Part shown: positions 5,479 through 24,199 of the stretch, piece after piece
Layout of the letters: every line of letters starts with the position of its first letter
How positions within the stretch are numbered: position 1 is the stretch's first letter
NCBI GenBank assembly: GCA_022627515.1
Contig: JAKEGK010000021.1
Location: 1 to 42,045 of the forward strand
Length of the DNA: 42,045 nucleotides
Source: Gammaproteobacteria bacterium
GTDB taxonomy: Bacteria; Pseudomonadota; Gammaproteobacteria; SZUA-152
Reading direction: 5' to 3'
The notes under the pieces: model-generated
Told to the model about the DNA's origin: nothing
What the model saw: the letters and a program-made list of their open reading frames with translations, nothing else
Database searches by the model: none
Translations under genes and position numbers: made by a program

Positions 5479-6579
5479 ATGAAACTCACACTCAGTGTTA
5501 TAAAAGCGGATATCGGCTCGATCGGAGGCCATATCTGTCCTTCCCGGGAATTATTCGAAAGCGTCAGTTCTTATGTTAAGAAACACAGTCATGATCTGCT
5601 CATCGACCACTATCTCAGCTTTACCGGTGATGACATTGCGATTGTCATGACGCACACGCGCGGAACCGGAGACGGGAAAATTCATAAACTTGCCTGGGAT
5701 GCCTTTATTACCGGCACCGAAACCGCAAAAGCGCAGGGTCTGTATGGCGCGGGGCAGGATCTGCTGAAAGACTCGTTCTCGGGTAATGTTAAAGGCATGG
5801 GTCCGGCGGTGGCGGAGATGGAGTTCGAGGAACGGACCAACGAACCGTTTTTGTTTTTTGCGGCGGATAAAACCGATCCGGGCGCCTACAACCTGCCTTT
5901 GTATCTGGCGTTTGCCGATCCCATGACGACGCCGGGCCTGATGCTGGCGCCGGTGATGGCGAAGGGATTCCGGTTTGTGATCATGGATGTGAATCACACG
6001 GAAGGCGACCGTATCATTGAACTCAACGCACCGGAAGATTTATACGATATCGCGGCGCTTTTGCGCGACACCGAACGCTACGTGGTGGAATCCATCTGGT
6101 CGCGGACGACGGACGAACAATCCGTCGTGGTCTCAACATCCCGCCTGCATAATATTGCGGGCACATATACCGGCAAGGATGATCCGGTCATGCTGGTGCG
6201 CGTGCAAAAATCTTTTCCAGCGACGGGAGAGATTCTCGCGCCCTATGCGATTGGCCCGTATGTAGCGGGTTGCATGCGCGGATCGCATCAAATGCCCTTG
6301 ATGCCGGTGCCATTGAATTCCGGCATCAGTTATTTTGACGGGCCGCCGGTCGTCAGCTGCGCGGCGTTTGCCATGCATAAAGGTAAAATGACGGAAGCCG
6401 TTGACGCCTTCGCTCATCCTTTCTGGGATAACGTCCGCAACACGGTTTCCGAAAAAGCGATCGGGATGCGGCGCCAGGGTTTCTTTGGCGCGGCTATGCT
6501 GCCCATGTCGGAACTGGAATATACCGGCATCATGGAAAAACTGGATAGACTTGACGGCAAGTTCCGCATCCGTGAATAG
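5479..6579 (+). CDS. Fructose-1,6-bisphosphate aldolase/phosphatase (class V FBPase), 366 aa
   Basis: The whole chain matches the archaeal/deep-branching bacterial FBPA/P family, a Mg-dependent bifunctional enzyme that condenses triose phosphates and dephosphorylates the product to fructose 6-phosphate. Diagnostic blocks: the N-terminus 'KLTLSVIKADIGSIGGHICP', 'DIAIVMTHTRG', 'WDAFITGTETAKAQGLYGAGQDL', 'FFAADKTDPGAYNLPLYLAFADP', 'DDPVMLVRVQKSFPATGEI' and 'PYAIGPYVAGCMRGSHQMPL'. Length is normal for the family. It serves gluconeogenesis or carbon fixation. GGAG lies about 11 bases before the ATG. An inverted repeat at 5271-5300 may regulate it. No other Calvin-cycle gene is visible nearby. Family assignment is firm; the physiological role is inference. 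Confidence 0.9.
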   Translation: MKLTLSVIKADIGSIGGHICPSRELFESVSSYVKKHSHDLLIDHYLSFTGDDIAIVMTHTRGTGDGKIHKLAWDAFITGTETAKAQGLYGAGQDLLKDSFSGNVKGMGPAVAEMEFEERTNEPFLFFAADKTDPGAYNLPLYLAFADPMTTPGLMLAPVMAKGFRFVIMDVNHTEGDRIIELNAPEDLYDIAALLRDTERYVVESIWSRTTDEQSVVVSTSRLHNIAGTYTGKDDPVMLVRVQKSFPATGEILAPYAIGPYVAGCMRGSHQMPLMPVPLNSGISYFDGPPVVSCAAFAMHKGKMTEAVDAFAHPFWDNVRNTVSEKAIGMRRQGFFGAAMLPMSELEYTGIMEKLDRLDGKFRIRE

Positions 6580-7672: not shown

Positions 7673-8215
7673 TCAAGGCGCGAACACCGCTGCCGCGACA
7701 ACGGTAGTCCACAAACCATGTTTATCACCGGTCGCCGATTGCGTGACGTTGGTGGTGCGGATGATGAGTTCGCTGGTGCGGTAATGCTGCTTGCGTTGAT
7801 CCCAGGCCTGTTCCGCGTCAAAGTCAAGCCCAACGGTCGTGGCCAGCATCGTTGCCGCAAGATCCTCGGCATAATCGCCGGTAATTTCGCCGGCCTGGCC
7901 GAAAGCGTGGTGCTCCGAGATGTAACCATGCATGTGCTTGTCGGCCGGAATAGCGAGTCCAACGGATGCCGACAACAAACGATGCGGTTCGCTGGTTTCG
8001 TTCCGGGCCAGCACCACATAGGTAATCTCACCGGGCGAGAGCAAAGTCAGTCCCTTGTCTTTCGGTATGACGTCGCAGGCCGGCGGCAGCACGCTGGACA
8101 CTGTCACCAGGTTCAGATGCGCAATGCCCGCGTCGCGCAGCGCCAGTTCAAAAGAATGCAGTTTCTCGCGGTGACGCCCGGCGCCTTTGGTCAGAAAAAG
8201 TTTGTTGGGAATCAT
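7673..8215 (-). CDS. Pyruvoyl-dependent arginine decarboxylase (PvlArgDC), 180 aa
   Basis: Converts arginine to agmatine, the first step of a polyamine route. The sequence starts '[19 protein letters not shown]' with the family's 'F.TKG.G.H...L.SFE.AL..AGI' pattern. Self-cleavage to alpha and beta chains normally occurs before a Ser in a VSSxxPP motif; here '[12 protein letters not shown]' (residues about 36-47) provides it, the second Ser becoming the pyruvoyl group. Later blocks '[13 protein letters not shown]', 'SASVGLAIP' and '[12 protein letters not shown]' also fit. Length is typical. The gene starts 10 bp after the stop of the DHS-like gene on the same strand, so the two form an operon. 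Confidence 0.9.
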
Positions 8216-8224
8216 GCTTGCCGC

Positions 8225-9286
8225 CTAACCCGGATCGTTGAACAGCCGGTTCAGGTCCGGGATGTGCCGCCTTTGCGTTACACGTTCCGCCAACGCATGA
8301 GTGAGAATCGGCAAGGCGATGGTGGCGTCACAATAACAGGTCACGTGCCGTCCTTGCGCCGAAACTTTTCCCCAGCTTACTGCTTCATCCAGGGTACAGC
8401 CGGACAAACCGCCCCATTGCGGTGAGTCCGTGGTGATCTGGATGGCATAGCGATGGGGATAGTAAAATTCCTTGAGACTCTTGCGTTCAAAACCGCGGCG
8501 GCCGGGAACCGCTTCGTCCTCGAAACGCGGCGACAGCGAAATTGCCATGAGTTGTGTAAAGTCCTTTGGCACGCCGCCGCCAATATAGATGACGCCGACG
8601 TCACCAACGCCGGCGCCGATGCCGACGAACTGATCGAACTCGCGACCCTGATCGACGACTATGCGCCGGCCGCGGTTCTTCGCCATGAAATAGGCCTCGC
8701 CGAACGCACTGTCAAAGAGCGCGGGAGAGAACACCGGCACGCCGTGGCGCGCAGCGGCGGCGAGAATGCTGTTGATGCCCTTGGCGCCTAGCCACTTCCC
8801 GAACAGGTGCAGCAGTTCCATGGATGAATACACCGCGCCATCAGGCAGGCCGGACATGAATCCTGTGAGTAGTTCCTCCATCTCGCGGTAGTCGGTTTCC
8901 TTGCCATACACATCGTAATATCGATTGAGATCAGCCGCCAGTAAATCCTCGTCGTTGATATGCGGTGTTCCCTGTTTATAGCTGTACCCCATTGCTTCGA
9001 CAATATCTTCGGAAACATTCGCGCCGGTGGAGACCAGCACATCAACGAAACGCTGTTCGATCAGCCAGCGCACCAGCTTCCATTGACCAGCTGTGCTCAT
9101 GGAGCCGGCCAGTCCCATCACGATAGCGATATTTTTCTCGTTGAGCATCGCTTGCCAGATTTCGGCGGCTTCGGCGAGAGTGCGTCCCTGATAGGCGGTT
9201 TTGCCCATGGCGGCGAGCAGATCGGAGACGCCGCGGGATTTCACCTCGATAGCCTCGACGCTTGCAGGTGATTTAATGTTGCCCAT
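8225..9286 (-). CDS. Deoxyhypusine synthase-family enzyme, probably homospermidine-type polyamine synthase, 353 aa
   Basis: A full-length NAD-binding DHS-like enzyme. Visible blocks: 'IVMGLAGSMSTAGQWKLVRWLIEQRFVDVLVSTGANVSED', 'GTPHINDEDLL', 'INSILAAAARHGVPVFSPAL', 'GVGDVGVIYIGGGVPKDF', and 'TDSPQWGGLSGCTLDEAVSWGK', in which the Lys of SWGK aligns with the catalytic Lys of eukaryotic DHS that forms the imine with the aminobutyl group. Bacteria have no eIF5A, so the usual hypusine reaction is excluded; homologues are thought to move aminobutyl to putrescine or agmatine-type acceptors. The adjacent arginine decarboxylase supports a polyamine role. RBS AAGGAT precedes the ATG. Confidence 0.85.
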   Translation of the reverse strand: MGNIKSPASVEAIEVKSRGVSDLLAAMGKTAYQGRTLAEAAEIWQAMLNEKNIAIVMGLAGSMSTAGQWKLVRWLIEQRFVDVLVSTGANVSEDIVEAMGYSYKQGTPHINDEDLLAADLNRYYDVYGKETDYREMEELLTGFMSGLPDGAVYSSMELLHLFGKWLGAKGINSILAAAARHGVPVFSPALFDSAFGEAYFMAKNRGRRIVVDQGREFDQFVGIGAGVGDVGVIYIGGGVPKDFTQLMAISLSPRFEDEAVPGRRGFERKSLKEFYYPHRYAIQITTDSPQWGGLSGCTLDEAVSWGKVSAQGRHVTCYCDATIALPILTHALAERVTQRRHIPDLNRLFNDPG

Positions 9287-9582: not shown

Positions 9583-10929
9583 TCAACGAGATCGGCTCGC
9601 GCGTGCATAGGCTTGAGTCATGGTGAACAGCCCATGAGTTGCGAAGAAGGCATTCGGCCAACGCTTGTGGTCGCTGAGAGCATGACCCTGTCCGGGACGC
9701 TTGCGCTGTTGCTTGCGCAAGATAGCAGGCAGGCGTCGGCGTACGAAACCGTCCACGTTGGTGAAGGTGTACCGATGCGCGTGTTTGAAGTATTCAAACC
9801 ATCCTCGAAGAATGGGGTTGAGTTCTTCAATGACGCAGGTGATGGCCACCCCTCGTCCACGTGCCGTACGGCTCCGGATTGCATCGCGCAACTTGCGCAT
9901 ACTTTTACGCCTCACCCAGCGTTGTCCCGCTTCAAATCGATACCCCAGAAACTCAAAGCCCTGTCCCACTTGCCGGCAGTCTCCAAGATGCGTCTTGTCT
10001 GGATGGAGTTCCAGTCGATTCGCAGCCATCCAGCTTCGGATATTCTCCAAAGCGCAAGTGGCTTGTTCATGGCTTTCGCATAATACAACGAAGTCATCTG
10101 CGTATCGGACCATATTGAAGCCATGCTCCGTCAGTAATACATCCAGATCGTGCAGGTAAATGTTCGCCAGCAGAGGGCTCAGTACCGCACCTTGCGGTGT
10201 GCCTTTGGTTGGTGTCCATTGTTCCAGCCCGTTGAAAATATCCTGCTTGAGAAAGGCTCCTATGAGTCTGAGCAACTTTTCATCACTGATGCGTTTTTCC
10301 ATCTTGCGCATCAGCATGTCATGGGAAATGCTGTCAAAATAGCTCCGAATATCCGCATCCACCACGTAGACATAGCCCGATTGAATCAGCTCATCTACCT
10401 CACGCAAGGCGTCTTTGCAACCCTTGCCGGGGCGGAAGCCGTAGCTCACCGGCAGAAAGTCTTTCTCGAATATGGGTTCGATGACTTTCTTCGCGGCGGC
10501 CTGGACCACCCGATCTTTCACAACCGGGATACCCAACGGTCTTCTCTTACCCTCGGCCTTGGGAATTTCCACGCGTCGCACGGGGTGGGGATGATAGTTT
10601 CCGGTTTTAAGTTGCTCATGCAATTCGTCCAGGTAACGCTGTGATTGGTTGTCAAACCGTTCAATCGTGATTTGATCCACTCCCGCTGCACCTCGATTCT
10701 TGCGCACAGTTTCCCATGCCGTTCGTAACGTCGTTTTCGCATAGACTTTGTCGATCAGACTAAACCATTTGCCTCCTTTGACGCCGTTATCCAGCGCCGC
10801 CAACATCCGCTCGTTCCATACGCAGGCTTCCACCCAACCCCATTCCAGGGCTGACGTTTCTGTATCTTGTCTAGTTGTTTCCAACACTTTCAATACTCCG
10901 TTTACACAGTGCCTTTGGTTGGTCCTCAC
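9583..10929 (-). CDS. ltrA: Group II intron reverse transcriptase/maturase, 448 aa
   Basis: Residues about 75-330 carry the seven RT blocks: 'RGAAGVDQITIERF', 'RRVEIPKAEGKRRPLGIPVVKDRVVQ', 'SYGFRPGKGCKDAL', 'VVDADIRSYFDSI', 'GTPQGAVLSPLLANIYL', the catalytic 'MVRYADDFVVLC' (YADD), and 'FEFLGYRF'. The maturase (X) domain follows with 'LNPILRGWFEYFKHA' and a short C-terminus ending 'HGLFTMTQAYARASRSR'. No HNH endonuclease domain is present. It assists splicing of its own intron and copies it into DNA. Length is normal with no stops or frameshifts. The first 35 residues lie in RNA structure, and the exact start is uncertain. Confidence 0.92.
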   Translation of the reverse strand: MRTNQRHCVNGVLKVLETTRQDTETSALEWGWVEACVWNERMLAALDNGVKGGKWFSLIDKVYAKTTLRTAWETVRKNRGAAGVDQITIERFDNQSQRYLDELHEQLKTGNYHPHPVRRVEIPKAEGKRRPLGIPVVKDRVVQAAAKKVIEPIFEKDFLPVSYGFRPGKGCKDALREVDELIQSGYVYVVDADIRSYFDSISHDMLMRKMEKRISDEKLLRLIGAFLKQDIFNGLEQWTPTKGTPQGAVLSPLLANIYLHDLDVLLTEHGFNMVRYADDFVVLCESHEQATCALENIRSWMAANRLELHPDKTHLGDCRQVGQGFEFLGYRFEAGQRWVRRKSMRKLRDAIRSRTARGRGVAITCVIEELNPILRGWFEYFKHAHRYTFTNVDGFVRRRLPAILRKQQRKRPGQGHALSDHKRWPNAFFATHGLFTMTQAYARASRSR

Positions 10930-20319: not shown

Positions 20320-22098
20320 ATGGTTCAATTCATTCAGCCTTATGCAATTCACGATACTGTCCTGGCGTATGACCGGCGTGTTTTGTTGTATGGTCCGCCG
20401 GGTATTGGTAAATCCACCATGGCTGCGCAGTTGGCCCGTTCCCTGTTTGCCAGTGGACGGCTCAGCCGGTGTATCAGCGCTGATCCAGGTTCACCGGCCT
20501 TCGGTGTGCCGGGCGCCATAACGCTGGCAAAGTGGCTAAACGATAACTGGGAAGTTATAACTTATGAAGCATTATGCACGCTGGATGCCGGACGTTTTCG
20601 CCTGCCGTTGATTGTTGCCGTGCAGCGACTGGCGCAAACATTAGGTGCGGGCATGGTGTTCGTCGATGCGCCGGGCGTGGTGCGTGGCGTGGCAGGGCGG
20701 GAGTTGCTGGCGGGATTGATCGAAGCCGCGCGAATTGACGCAGTCCTGGCGTTTACTGTGGCGGACCGGCCGCCCCCGTTGCTCGATGAACTGCGCGCCA
20801 TGGGCATCGAAGTATTTGCAGTACCGGCCGCGCCTGATGCAAAACGTCCCGGTAAAAAGACGCGGGCGAAGCAACGCACCACGCAGTGGGATGCGTTTCT
20901 CGCTGATGCAACGCAGCGGATCATCGATCTTGCCAGGGTGAATCTCCTTGGTACGCCACCGCCCAGGGAAGAACCCAGCGTCTGGACCGGCCGGCAAATC
21001 GCTTTGTTATCCGGCGCCGCCACCATTGCCATGGGTGAAACGCAGCGGCTGGAAGGCAACACGCTGTTGGCGCGGTTTCCAGCCGGCGTTGGAAGCCTTG
21101 ACAAGTTTGATACGATTGTAATGCGGGATGCGGTGCGCACACCTGAGGGCGTTGTGGAAACCGCGGCGCCGTTTGCCGCCGAACGTCTTGAACATATCCC
21201 GCCAGCGTATCTGGCGCCTGCGATGGAAGAAAGCAACGGGCCGCGCATAGTGGGCCGTGTGGGGCCAATCGATATCGCGCTGGTCAATGGCGTATTCGGT
21301 GATCCGTTATTGCATCTTCGTTCGCGTTATCAGCGCCGCAGTTTATTATTTGATTTGGGTCAGGGCGGGCGTTTGCCGGCGCGCCTTGCGCATCAAATCA
21401 GTGACGTATTCATCAGTCACGCGCATTTTGATCATATCGGAGGATTCCTGTGGTTGCTGCGGTCGCGCATTGGCGAGTTTCCGCCGTGCCGGCTTTATGG
21501 GCCACCGGGCCTGACCACGCATATCGCGGGTTTCATCCAGGGTATTTTATGGGACCGGGTGGCGGAGCACGGTCCATTATTTGAAATAACTGAAATCCAC
21601 GGGCAGCATTTGCAACGCTTCAGCATGCAGGCCGGTCGCAAAGAGCCTTTTCCACTCGGTCAAACCGGCTGGGTGAATGGCGTTTTACTGGATGAACCGG
21701 GCTTTAAAGTGCGTGCAACCGTACTCGATCATAATCGGATACCGGTTATCGCCTATGCCTACGAAGCCGCAAAGCAGATTAATATCCGCAAAGACCGGCT
21801 GCACGCGCGTAATCTAAACGTGGGTCACTGGCTGACGCAATTGAAACAATGCCTGATGGCGGATGACAACAACGCGATGATTCAGCTGCCAGACGGCGCT
21901 GCGGAACAGGCCGGCGTTTTGGGTAACGAACTGACACTGATCACCCCGGGCAAGAAACTGGTGTATGCCACGGATCTTGCCGATACCCCGGATAACCGCG
22001 AGCGCTTGACTGCTTTCGCGCGCAATGCGCATACTTTTTTCTGTGAAGCTTCCTTTCTGGAAAGTGATGTCGACAGGCAAGACGCACCGGACATTTAA
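20320..22098 (+). CDS. Clp1/Grc3-like P-loop kinase fused to RNase Z-like metallo-beta-lactamase (frameshifted at 3' end)
   Basis: Residues about 18-330 are P-loop NTPase-like: Walker A 'LLYGPPGIGKSTMA', 'CISADPGSPAFGVPGAI' as in Clp1/Grc3 polynucleotide 5'-kinases, 'LCTLDAGRFRLPLI', Walker B-like 'GMVFVDAPG', and a following beta-rich part. Residues about 345-590 form a metallo-beta-lactamase domain with 'HAHFDHIGG' (HxHxDH) and 'KLVYATDLADT' (metal-binding Asp), close to tRNase Z. The frame stops at 22098 before the expected 'H..HFSRRY' end, which continues in another frame to 22298. An RNA 5'/3' end processing function is plausible, not shown. A one-base deletion near 22081 explains the break. 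Confidence 0.8.
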   Translation: MVQFIQPYAIHDTVLAYDRRVLLYGPPGIGKSTMAAQLARSLFASGRLSRCISADPGSPAFGVPGAITLAKWLNDNWEVITYEALCTLDAGRFRLPLIVAVQRLAQTLGAGMVFVDAPGVVRGVAGRELLAGLIEAARIDAVLAFTVADRPPPLLDELRAMGIEVFAVPAAPDAKRPGKKTRAKQRTTQWDAFLADATQRIIDLARVNLLGTPPPREEPSVWTGRQIALLSGAATIAMGETQRLEGNTLLARFPAGVGSLDKFDTIVMRDAVRTPEGVVETAAPFAAERLEHIPPAYLAPAMEESNGPRIVGRVGPIDIALVNGVFGDPLLHLRSRYQRRSLLFDLGQGGRLPARLAHQISDVFISHAHFDHIGGFLWLLRSRIGEFPPCRLYGPPGLTTHIAGFIQGILWDRVAEHGPLFEITEIHGQHLQRFSMQAGRKEPFPLGQTGWVNGVLLDEPGFKVRATVLDHNRIPVIAYAYEAAKQINIRKDRLHARNLNVGHWLTQLKQCLMADDNNAMIQLPDGAAEQAGVLGNELTLITPGKKLVYATDLADTPDNRERLTAFARNAHTFFCEASFLESDVDRQDAPDI

Positions 22099-22298
22099 CC
22101 ACACATGCCTGTGGCGAGATTGCCATGGCAGCCGGTGTTACACGCCTGGCGCCGTTTCATTTTTCCCGCCGCTACACAACCAATCCATTACCGCTCTATG
22201 AAGAAATCAGCGAGGTTTGCGATCGCCTGTGCGCGCCGCTTTCGATGAGCGTGTTTTCCGCGCAGGAATCACAATCAATACTGGAACTGGAAGAATAA
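22081..22298 (+). pseudogene. Displaced C-terminal end of the kinase/RNase Z-like fusion
   Basis: In the frame of 22092 the DNA reads 'TGHLTTHACGEIAMAAGVTR', then 'LAPFHFSRRYTTNPLPLYEE', and ends with TAA at 22296-22298. This is the conserved tail of RNase Z-like enzymes: the 'TGHLT' His and the 'HFSRRY' His are metal or catalytic residues. It joins the upstream frame if one base is restored within CAAGACGCACC at about 22078-22088. The upstream ORF is otherwise intact, so this is either a recent mutation or a sequence error. The site lacks a slippery heptamer, so programmed frameshifting is unlikely. Confidence 0.8.
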
Positions 22299-22708: not shown

Positions 22709-24199
22709 CAATGCTGTTGACTTAACAACCCCTTATTTTTCGTATTTTTGCCTCACGCCATTTATTCATGGGTGTTTTTGATACTCTCGGTTGAGGTTTT
22801 CGAGGCGTTTTCGGTCGATAATATTTCACGCGTTTTATTTCTTGTAATATGTCATTAAAGATTTCGTAAGCTTTATTTGGATTGTTGCTCACCAGCACGC
22901 AAGCCTCCGATGCTAACGTTAGCATCGTGTGTTTGAATTGTGGCTGTATTGGCCGTCCATTGCATTGTGACGCCGATAAGACCATTAGCGTTCTCGATAT
23001 AACGGACATAATTAAAACCGCAAACAACTCCTGGAGAATGCCATTGGGCGTTTTACTGTGAAAAGCCTCAATATCGAGATATACTTTTTCGTCACGATAA
23101 TGCTCTTCTATCGCCCAGCGTTTGAAATATAAATCGATAATGGTTTTACGAGTAAACGGCGTGCGAGGCAGGTTTGTCAGTAGTACTGATATGACACCCT
23201 CTGGGCTCTCTAAGCGGATCGCTCTTAGTCGAATCGGGCGGCTACTAACGCGCTCTTGTTGTGAGGCTCTTTGATTGAATTTTTTCGATGGGTTGATATG
23301 GATCATCGCTTGTTGTTTTCCTGAGGCAAGGAAAGACTCAACCGCCGGAAATGTTTGGCTCGCTTGGCAGCGATAAACGTATTAGCCCTCATAGTGGTGA
23401 TTCATGTGGCGAATTAAGTCATAACTTGGATAACCCCGGTCAAAGAGCACCACGTTACCAGAGGGTATCGATTGAATTAAGGTTTTTGCTTGTTCGCGTT
23501 CATTCCCCGCCTCAATGCCCACGACCGTTCTTGCCACGGGTAGACGGCGAAACACATCGTAAGCCGTGGAGACTAAGCATTGGGGGAAATGTTTGTGCGT
23601 AGGGGAATCGAGCCCGCTGCAAGGGTCAAATGTTGTACGCAGTTGTTGCGTGGCCGGTAGATCGTATCTTGAACCATCCACGGCAAATACCGACATGCCT
23701 TGCCACAAGCCTTCAGGATTTTGCGGCCAATGATCATAGGCGATGTTAACTGCCTCCTTGAGTCAATCGTCAAAGACTTGCCAAGGGAGCTTTTGCCGCG
23801 AGCGCGTGATAGCGCTTTTGTGAACCGCTTGTGCTTGTGGCCATAAGCCACTGCGTTTAGCATTCTTGAAAAAAACGCCGCTCTTATGATCAACGCTACC
23901 GTTAGCGCTAGCCGATAGCGATAATACTAATGTAATAAGCTGTGCTAACGGTAGTTTGCGGTTGCGTATAAAATGCTGGGGAGATTGTAATGATATTTTG
24001 TTTTGATTGGCAGGAATGATATTTAAAAATTTATCAATAACAGTAGAAAGTTGGCATGGATTTTCAAATCAATACGTGTGCCATGTTAGTCTCCTTTTTT
24101 AAATAAATTTACCAAACCATTGCATCAGGAAAACAGTTTATCACATTTGTTTTGATGTACATCCGCGTACAAAATGCATTTCTTAAGTCAATAGCATTG
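22709..24199 (-). mobile_element. IS4-family insertion sequence, 1491 bp, inactive
   Basis: Terminal inverted repeats: left end CAATGCTGTTGACTTAA (from 22709) and right end, reverse complement, CAATGCTATTGACTTAA (ending 24199), 16 of 17 identical. Between them lies one transposase pseudogene on the minus strand. The size suits the IS4 family. The flanks are C-rich on the left and GAAAGGGAGGGGGG on the right, so it appears to sit in a CCCTCCC/GGGAGGG palindrome. A clean target duplication is not seen, in line with an old, decayed insertion. Confidence 0.8.
22722..24068 (-). pseudogene. IS4-family DDE transposase with two in-frame stop codons
   Basis: One continuous reading frame from about 24068 to 22722 encodes a transposase interrupted only by TGA (23763-23765, in 'WQVFDD*LKEAVN') and TAA (23382-23384, in 'HYEG*YVYRCQ'). 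Conserved features: N-terminal 'SGVFFKNAKRSGLWPQAQAV' and 'ITRSRQKLPW', first Asp in 'FAVDGSRYDLPAT', second in 'VVLFDRGYPSYDL', and the C-terminal 'YFKRWAIEEHYRDEKVYLDI' signature containing the third acidic residue with the Y..R..EK pattern. No frameshift is needed, so decay is recent or limited. An N-terminal start is not evident. Confidence 0.85.

Follow-up and report, generated by a model that had tools for sequence, protein, structure and literature searches.

A Clp1-like domain fused to an RNase Z-like domain in bacteria, and its co-occurrence with the RNA repair genes RtcA and RtcB

In eukaryotes, kinases of the Clp1 family act alongside nucleases when tRNAs are spliced, rRNA is processed and mRNA 3' ends are formed. 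The locus described here joins a relative of such kinases to a relative of a nuclease in bacteria. It lies in the window, by which we mean the whole stretch of 42,045 nucleotides that was analysed (contig JAKEGK010000021.1 of assembly GCA_022627515.1, from a gammaproteobacterium of the lineage SZUA-152). For positions 20320-22298, the sequence-only reading had proposed one protein joining a Clp1/Grc3-type N-terminal half to an RNase Z-type C-terminal half, that is, an enzyme of RNA end processing or repair, in a combination for which neither half is known to be named in bacteria. The features of the gene are as follows, all on the forward strand, with residue counts taken over 65 aligned rows.

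20320..22098, +, fusion ORF of 592 amino acids, truncated by a frameshift, holding the Clp1-like half and the greater part of the RNase Z half
20350..21240, +, Clp1/Grc3-type half (P-loop kinase domain and a region matching the Clp1 C-terminal domain), modelled alone with a pLDDT of 93.5
20389..20418, +, Walker A or P-loop, YGPPGIGKST, with the lysine codon at 20410
20482..20511, +, Walker B-like segment DPGSPAFGVP, with Asp in 65/65 rows and Ser in place of the expected Gln in the window
20665..20697, +, clasp-equivalent segment DAPGVVRGVAG, the Trp of the Clp1 family being absent in 65/65 rows
20863..20877, +, lid-equivalent R-x-x-x-R, both Arg in 65/65 rows (published motif RxxxxR)
21250..22095, +, RNase Z half, with metal or catalytic residues His367, His369, Asp371, His372, His471, Asp552 and Glu576
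21418..21435, +, HxHxDH metal motif (HAHFDH)
22060..22098, +, frameshift region relative to intact relatives
22099..22298, +, out-of-frame C-terminal RNase Z segment (GHLTTHACGEIA..PFHFSRRY..), stop at 22298, profile match G000:C21:22020-22247 at 84 bits

The interval 20320-22298 is not a single open frame here. The ORF at 20320-22098, which contains the motifs GPPGIGKST, DPGSPAFGVPGAI and LCTLDAGRFRLPLI, loses its frame near nucleotide 22075 and stops at 22098, and the conserved C-terminus (GHLTTHACGEIA...PFHFSRRY) lies in another frame, up to 22298. A profile search of the window's genome (G000) likewise returns the fusion in two pieces, covering model positions 3-574 and 556-631. As the nearest relatives carry intact single ORFs, of 675 aa (L002/L012) and 645 aa (L003), the break of about one base near 22075 is, judged from sequence comparison, either a local assembly error or a recent mutation. 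A programmed frameshift is not supported, the closest relatives being in frame; two further loci (L090 and L094) are broken too, at places other than the window's. A chance or antisense artefact is ruled out, as the whole architecture is kept in homologues of 43-63% identity.

Both halves of the window protein are recognized by Pfam, as CLP1_P (50 bits, cut-off 26.6) and Lactamase_B_2 (33.1 bits, cut-off 27), and its best NCBIfam match is the RNase Z subfamily PRK02126 (E 2.7e-62), at 210.7 bits and thus below the cut-off of 315. CLP1_P was matched in 30 of 31 members of the fusion family. A profile search of the PDB by sequence alone returned chiefly P-loop proteins of a generic kind, and Clp1 entries stood further down the ranking. 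In structure comparison, the AlphaFold model of the window's own N-terminal half matches human CLP1 (8hmy_E) with a Z score of 26.1 over 254 residues; the first 16 matches are Clp1, Grc3 or NOL9 (Z 26.1 to 17.8), and the next fold outside the Clp1 group, that of the SRP-type GTPases, follows at Z 12.3. Residues 1-270 of an intact fusion (L019), modelled in full from 59 sequences with a mean pLDDT of 89.1 and a pTM of 0.74, gave Z 26.3 for CLP1 (8hmy_E) and 25.7 for C. elegans Clp1. The Clp1/Grc3 assignment made from the letters thus stands, and by the fold ranking an SRP-type GTPase, an AAA protein or MinD is not the better match. With the Clp1 family (CLP1, Grc3/NOL9 and archaeal or bacterial Clp1) the fusion shares the P-loop and the C-terminal-domain-like fold (Z 26), together with an intact Walker A, and, like prokaryotic Clp1, it is devoid of the eukaryotic N-terminal domain, the alignment starting at about residue 96 of CLP1. 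It differs from this family in the nuclease fused in the chain, in the loss of the clasp Trp and the Walker B Gln, in the shorter lid spacing, and in a fusion-specific LDAxRFRLP block, where a stand-alone bacterial Clp1 (L161) has SPRGHFLP, as aligned by eye.

How far the Clp1 half keeps the equipment of a kinase was followed through four Clp1 motifs, namely Walker A, Walker B, clasp and lid, as described in sections of PMC6777427, across the 65 rows (64 loci and the window). Walker A, GxxxxGK[S/T], is the one of the four found complete, in 63/65 rows including the window, the P-loop Lys being likewise present in 63/65. In the Walker B position ([D/E]hhQ) the Asp is invariant, 65/65, and the Gln occurs in 2/65, the window having Ser. 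In the clasp ([T/S/L]xGW) the Gly is kept in 65/65 rows and the Trp in 0/65, and this Trp is also absent from the stand-alone bacterial Clp1 of L161 (TDGL). The lid retains two invariant Arg (65/65), spaced RxxxR and thus one residue closer than the published RxxxxR. Changes in the clasp are linked to inactive Clp1 members in passages of a 2023 survey (PMC10598085). The absence of the clasp Trp in 65/65 rows and of the Walker B Gln in 63/65 means that kinase activity is not assured. The Clp1 half is nevertheless conserved, with an intact ATP-binding P-loop; from the modelled fold we infer that it may act as an RNA 5'-end kinase. In two loci (L087 and L092) the P-loop is degenerate and the RNase Z half intact, and these may be natural kinase-dead copies or sequence errors in metagenome bins.

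The same motif counts bear on a reading that we consider rather doubtful, in which the Clp1 half binds ATP but has a regulatory or scaffolding role and, like yeast Clp1, no kinase activity, the whole protein then being an ATP-gated RNase Z. The missing clasp Trp (0/65) and Walker B Gln (2/65) speak for it, as do the two loci with a degenerate P-loop and a Halomonas locus (L096) that has the RNase Z half alone; yeast Clp1 itself is described as being without kinase activity in the Discussion of PMC6777427. However, the polar positions D65, D99, R102, R104, R132, R192 and R196 of the Clp1 half are invariant in 65/65 rows, which looks like an active site, and the two loci with a degenerate P-loop come from metagenome bins that may hold sequence errors.

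The RNase Z-type nature of the C-terminal half, claimed from the letters, was borne out. H382, H384, D386, H387, H486, D566 and E590 are invariant in 65/65 aligned rows, and H606 is present in 64, the frameshifted window row having a gap there. Residues 313-634 of the modelled L019 protein match B. subtilis RNase Z in complex with pre-tRNA (4gcw) with Z 26.8 over 279 of 307 residues; for the same enzyme without tRNA (1y44_A), 241 residues align, a difference that fits a retained tRNA-binding arm. The C-terminal half is therefore shown by modelling to have the predicted fold and metal ligands of bacterial RNase Z and, by aligned length, its tRNA-binding arm, and we regard it as a predicted nuclease. 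In its details it shares with the short form of RNase Z and with PRK02126 the HxHxDH motif, the other metal ligands, the catalytic Glu and His motifs and the arm region, its structure being closest to tRNA-bound B. subtilis RNase Z; it differs from them in the N-terminal Clp1 half and in forming, in the tree, a clade apart from the two canonical RNase Z rows. The intact L019 protein scores below the family cut-offs, with 110 bits for TIGR02651 (cut-off 292.95) and 292.1 for PRK02126 (cut-off 315), the latter being passed by stand-alone relatives (L156, 463.6 bits; L151, 404.8 bits).

The architecture extends well beyond the window's assembly, to which it might have been confined. Among 57 relatives there were nine matches at E <= 0.001, including the window's own genome, and two others of the same set carry an intact fusion, one in the same family (G022) and one in another (G031). 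A scan of GTDB genomes gave 80 loci, about 70 of them with one full-length fusion ORF; this figure joins the 66/80 in which a script found a single ORF spanning the whole of both domains to four loci (L019, L037, L039 and L040) that fail the script's test solely through a domain split by HMMER. Of the remaining ten loci, some are truncated at a contig end, one has a late start (L084), L090 and L094 are frameshifted or broken, and L096, from a Halomonas genome, has just the RNase Z half in mid-contig. Most hosts belong to the Gammaproteobacteria; a few bins bear the label Deltaproteobacteria or Desulfobacteraceae, and one that of Acidobacteria. Of 369 genomes sampled from the class, 37 match and 14 have full fusions, which are spread over 13 families. 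Two of the matching genomes (G333, G355) have fusion fragments cut by a contig end, and 18 have an RNase Z without a fused kinase, one of these (G107) probably being a fusion of which a contig end leaves a fragment. In the comparisons below, the background for each class omits the fragments and the other class, and keeps three weakly matching genomes (G207, G375 and G315).

A tree built on the RNase Z half places 15 stand-alone proteins together in a single long-branched clade; seven other rows without a kinase sit among the fusions, all but L096 being contig ends or a frameshift. This topology fits one fusion, or one split, with rare losses. One genome (G216) has a bacterial Clp1 gene directly upstream of a stand-alone RNase Z of the same subfamily, and the pairing of Clp1 and RNase Z thus exists also as neighbouring genes. 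The two halves occur, then, as one protein across many lineages, or as two neighbouring genes in one genome. Elsewhere, a stand-alone RNase Z gene is immediately followed by a gene with a PEP-utilizers_C domain (L167:5132-7442, in G320). Of 72,556 plasmid records, 25 matched, none over 80% of the query, and the search for defence systems with PADLOC yielded, for the P-loop, just a weak match to Csx3 (E 5e-4).

The genes that accompany the fusion bear on its function. RtcB needs 5'-OH ends and cannot use a 5'-phosphate, and RtcA makes 2',3'-cyclic phosphate ends and is able to adenylylate RNA ends. RtcA adjoins the fusion, or lies one gene off, in 5/80 scanned loci (L019, L022, L024, L025 and L026). 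A THUMP protein is found near the fusion in 3/80, immediately upstream of it in L022 and L044 and separated from it by a Prim-Pol gene in L048; the Pfam THUMP cut-off is passed solely by the L022 protein, the other rows being assigned from the alignment. In one genome (G097), THUMP, RtcA, an archease-like ORF (by eye) and RtcB are consecutive on the fusion's contig, about 8 kb from the fusion. On the whole, compared with the Rtc operon (RtcR/RtcB/RtcA), the fusion co-occurs with RtcA and RtcB and sometimes stands beside RtcA, but is usually elsewhere in the genome: most of the 80 fusion loci have no Rtc gene alongside, and the Halomonas group showed no RNA-repair gene nearby, the neighbours being syntenic (e.g., carA/carB, by eye).

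At the level of genomes in the class sample, RtcA is present in 8/14 fusion genomes versus 21/335 others (Fisher p 1.8e-6) and RtcB in 11/14 versus 97/335 (p 2.5e-4), these p-values being indicative only, as the genomes are related to each other. Within RtcB-positive genomes the enrichment of RtcA is modest (6/11 with the fusion versus 20/97, p 0.02). THUMP occurs in 4/14 fusion genomes versus 3/335 others, an association that is partly circular because two of the four profile rows come from sample genomes (G097 and G228); once these donors are removed it becomes 2/12 versus 3/335 (p 0.010). Among 50 genomes chosen from the 80 loci, a set that overlaps the class sample, 21 have RtcA. RtcA was not found in 6/14 fusion genomes nor RtcB in 3/14, the window's own genome among the latter; that genome gave a partial RtcA match, a THUMP-Prim-Pol pair on another contig and no RtcB match, and RtcA was not seen in the window. 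The stand-alone RNase Z proteins of the subfamily show a similar pattern (RtcA in 9/18 genomes, RtcB in 16/18), so the Rtc association, being equally strong there, may belong to the RNase Z half alone. The idea of an RNA end-processing or repair enzyme thus draws independent support from its setting, through the co-occurrence and adjacency of RtcA, RtcB and THUMP, with a caveat as regards the kinase, one of four Clp1 motifs being complete.

A role in ordinary tRNA processing has to be weighed at this point. Canonical RNase Z is found, at a score of at least 225 bits, in 11/369 genomes of the class sample (0/14 fusion genomes and 9/335 others). In a best-match search of 25 genomes, the fusion is the best RNase Z-type match in 20/22 genomes searched via the loci, the remaining two belonging to Marinobacter, and likewise in G022 and G031; G000 gave no match at the threshold. 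The notion that the fusion replaces canonical RNase Z was dropped, the class background being just 11/369. All tRNA genes in the scanned flanks (12/12, after two further calls inside the fusion gene were dropped) encode CCA. We hold it unlikely that the fusion matures tRNA 3' ends without any specific link to Rtc repair, and that its kinase would act on other RNA, such as rRNA or mRNA fragments, and promote their decay, like Grc3-Las1. Its rank as best RNase Z-type match and the lack of an Rtc gene beside most fusion loci would agree with this, but the encoded CCA leaves no obvious need for classical RNase Z maturation, the rarity of canonical RNase Z in the class makes its absence beside the fusion uninformative, and the co-occurrence with RtcA and RtcB is significant.

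The domain logic, with one half for each end, and the co-occurrence of RtcA would also suit end healing for a ligase that joins 5'-phosphate to 3'-OH, in the manner of Pnkp, the kinase healing the 5' end and the RNase Z half removing a blocked 3' end. We consider this improbable, however, since RtcB, which needs 5'-OH, is present in most fusion genomes, and in a search of 20 genomes, 14 of them with full fusions, that covered the Rnl2-type RNA ligase family (PF09414), a match appeared in just three, two of which are full-fusion genomes, and none in G000.

We tentatively favour another reading, to which we give somewhat less than an even chance, namely that the fusion is a two-site tRNA or RNA-end enzyme tied to Rtc repair, its kinase half sorting 5'-OH ends away from RtcB. 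The steps that go beyond fold and co-occurrence are ones that we infer. The arm of the RNase Z half would bind tRNA or tRNA-like RNA, and this half would cut on the 3' side of the acceptor stem or close to it, removing trailers or 3' ends that are damaged; as all 12 flank tRNA genes encode CCA, routine maturation of CCA-less transcripts does not suggest itself as the task, and the likelier substrates are 3' ends with damage or an aberrant form. The Clp1 half would phosphorylate 5'-OH ends left by tRNA breakage by metal-independent RNases. As RtcB joins 5'-OH ends only, such phosphorylation would block religation, and the phosphorylated fragments would be withdrawn from RtcB and passed to 5'-phosphate-sensing decay, the fusion protein serving as an end sorter beside the RtcB/RtcA repair path. 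Such a role of the kinase would have the same sense as that of animal CLP1, described in portions of PMC8935212 as a negative regulator, or brake, of RtcB, and the Salmonella rtcBA operon responds to broken tRNAs, according to excerpts of PMC7790460. The full version of this scheme, in which a single bacterial protein reads tRNA with the RNase Z arm, cuts on the 3' side, phosphorylates 5'-OH and so decides between religation by RtcB and decay, is possible, though we would not call it probable. Such a protein would correspond, in bacteria and within a single chain, to the eukaryotic Clp1-nuclease complexes.

The comparison with those complexes, Las1-Grc3 and TSEN-CLP1, is close in that they too unite an RNA endonuclease with a Clp1-family kinase, but the fusion is one polypeptide, is bacterial, and has a metallo-beta-lactamase as its nuclease. 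A nuclease of this type is expected to leave 3'-OH and 5'-P ends, not cyclic phosphate and 5'-OH. That the RNase Z half would cut no RNA, and would instead hydrolyse adenylylated ends or proteins, for example undoing faulty adenylylation by RtcA, seems to us very improbable. RNase Z does have a deAMPylase activity that needs its catalytic residues and is helped by the exosite, as reported in PMC12663964, and the association of the subfamily with RtcA holds whether or not the kinase is present; yet the same paper states specificity for SelO-mediated AMPylation.

Both halves of the protein are of known kinds; searches of the open-licence PMC literature yielded no report of their covalent combination, of how widely it occurs or of its association with Rtc, and no description of the fusion as part of an Rtc operon was found there either. 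The words 'Lactamase', 'RNase Z' and 'fusion' are absent from the main text of the bacterial Clp1 survey PMC6777427, which, in the sections consulted, describes no nuclease partner. A conserved fusion that tracks RtcA and RtcB offers a concrete, testable partner and pathway for bacterial Clp1, prompts one to ask what opposes RtcB in bacterial cells, and brings the coupling of nuclease and kinase into one protein for study. Cultured carriers exist (Halomonas, Billgrantia, Methylobacter and Marinobacter), which makes tests practical.

Some observations concern the surroundings of the gene. About 420 bases downstream of the fusion in the window, an IS transposase lies in pieces on the minus strand (22722-23893, with DDE_Tnp_1 for 22722-23303), and this element may have separated the fusion from former neighbours. 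The window also encodes, at 9583-10929, a group II intron reverse transcriptase/maturase (RVT_1, GIIM). FBPase_3, pyruvoyl-dependent arginine decarboxylase and deoxyhypusine synthase are gene types best known from archaea, and Pfam assigns all three families in the window, at 5479-6579, 7673-8215 and 8225-9286, respectively. The THUMP/Prim-Pol pair on another contig of the window's genome is at L205:8377-9540, and in G228 the genes for a THUMP protein and, next to it, a small Prim-Pol protein stand in this order upstream of the fusion (L209:5956-9768). Finally, a decayed or frameshifted fragment of the Clp1 half lies downstream of an archease-like ORF (by eye) and an RtcB gene in L179 (G207:C288).
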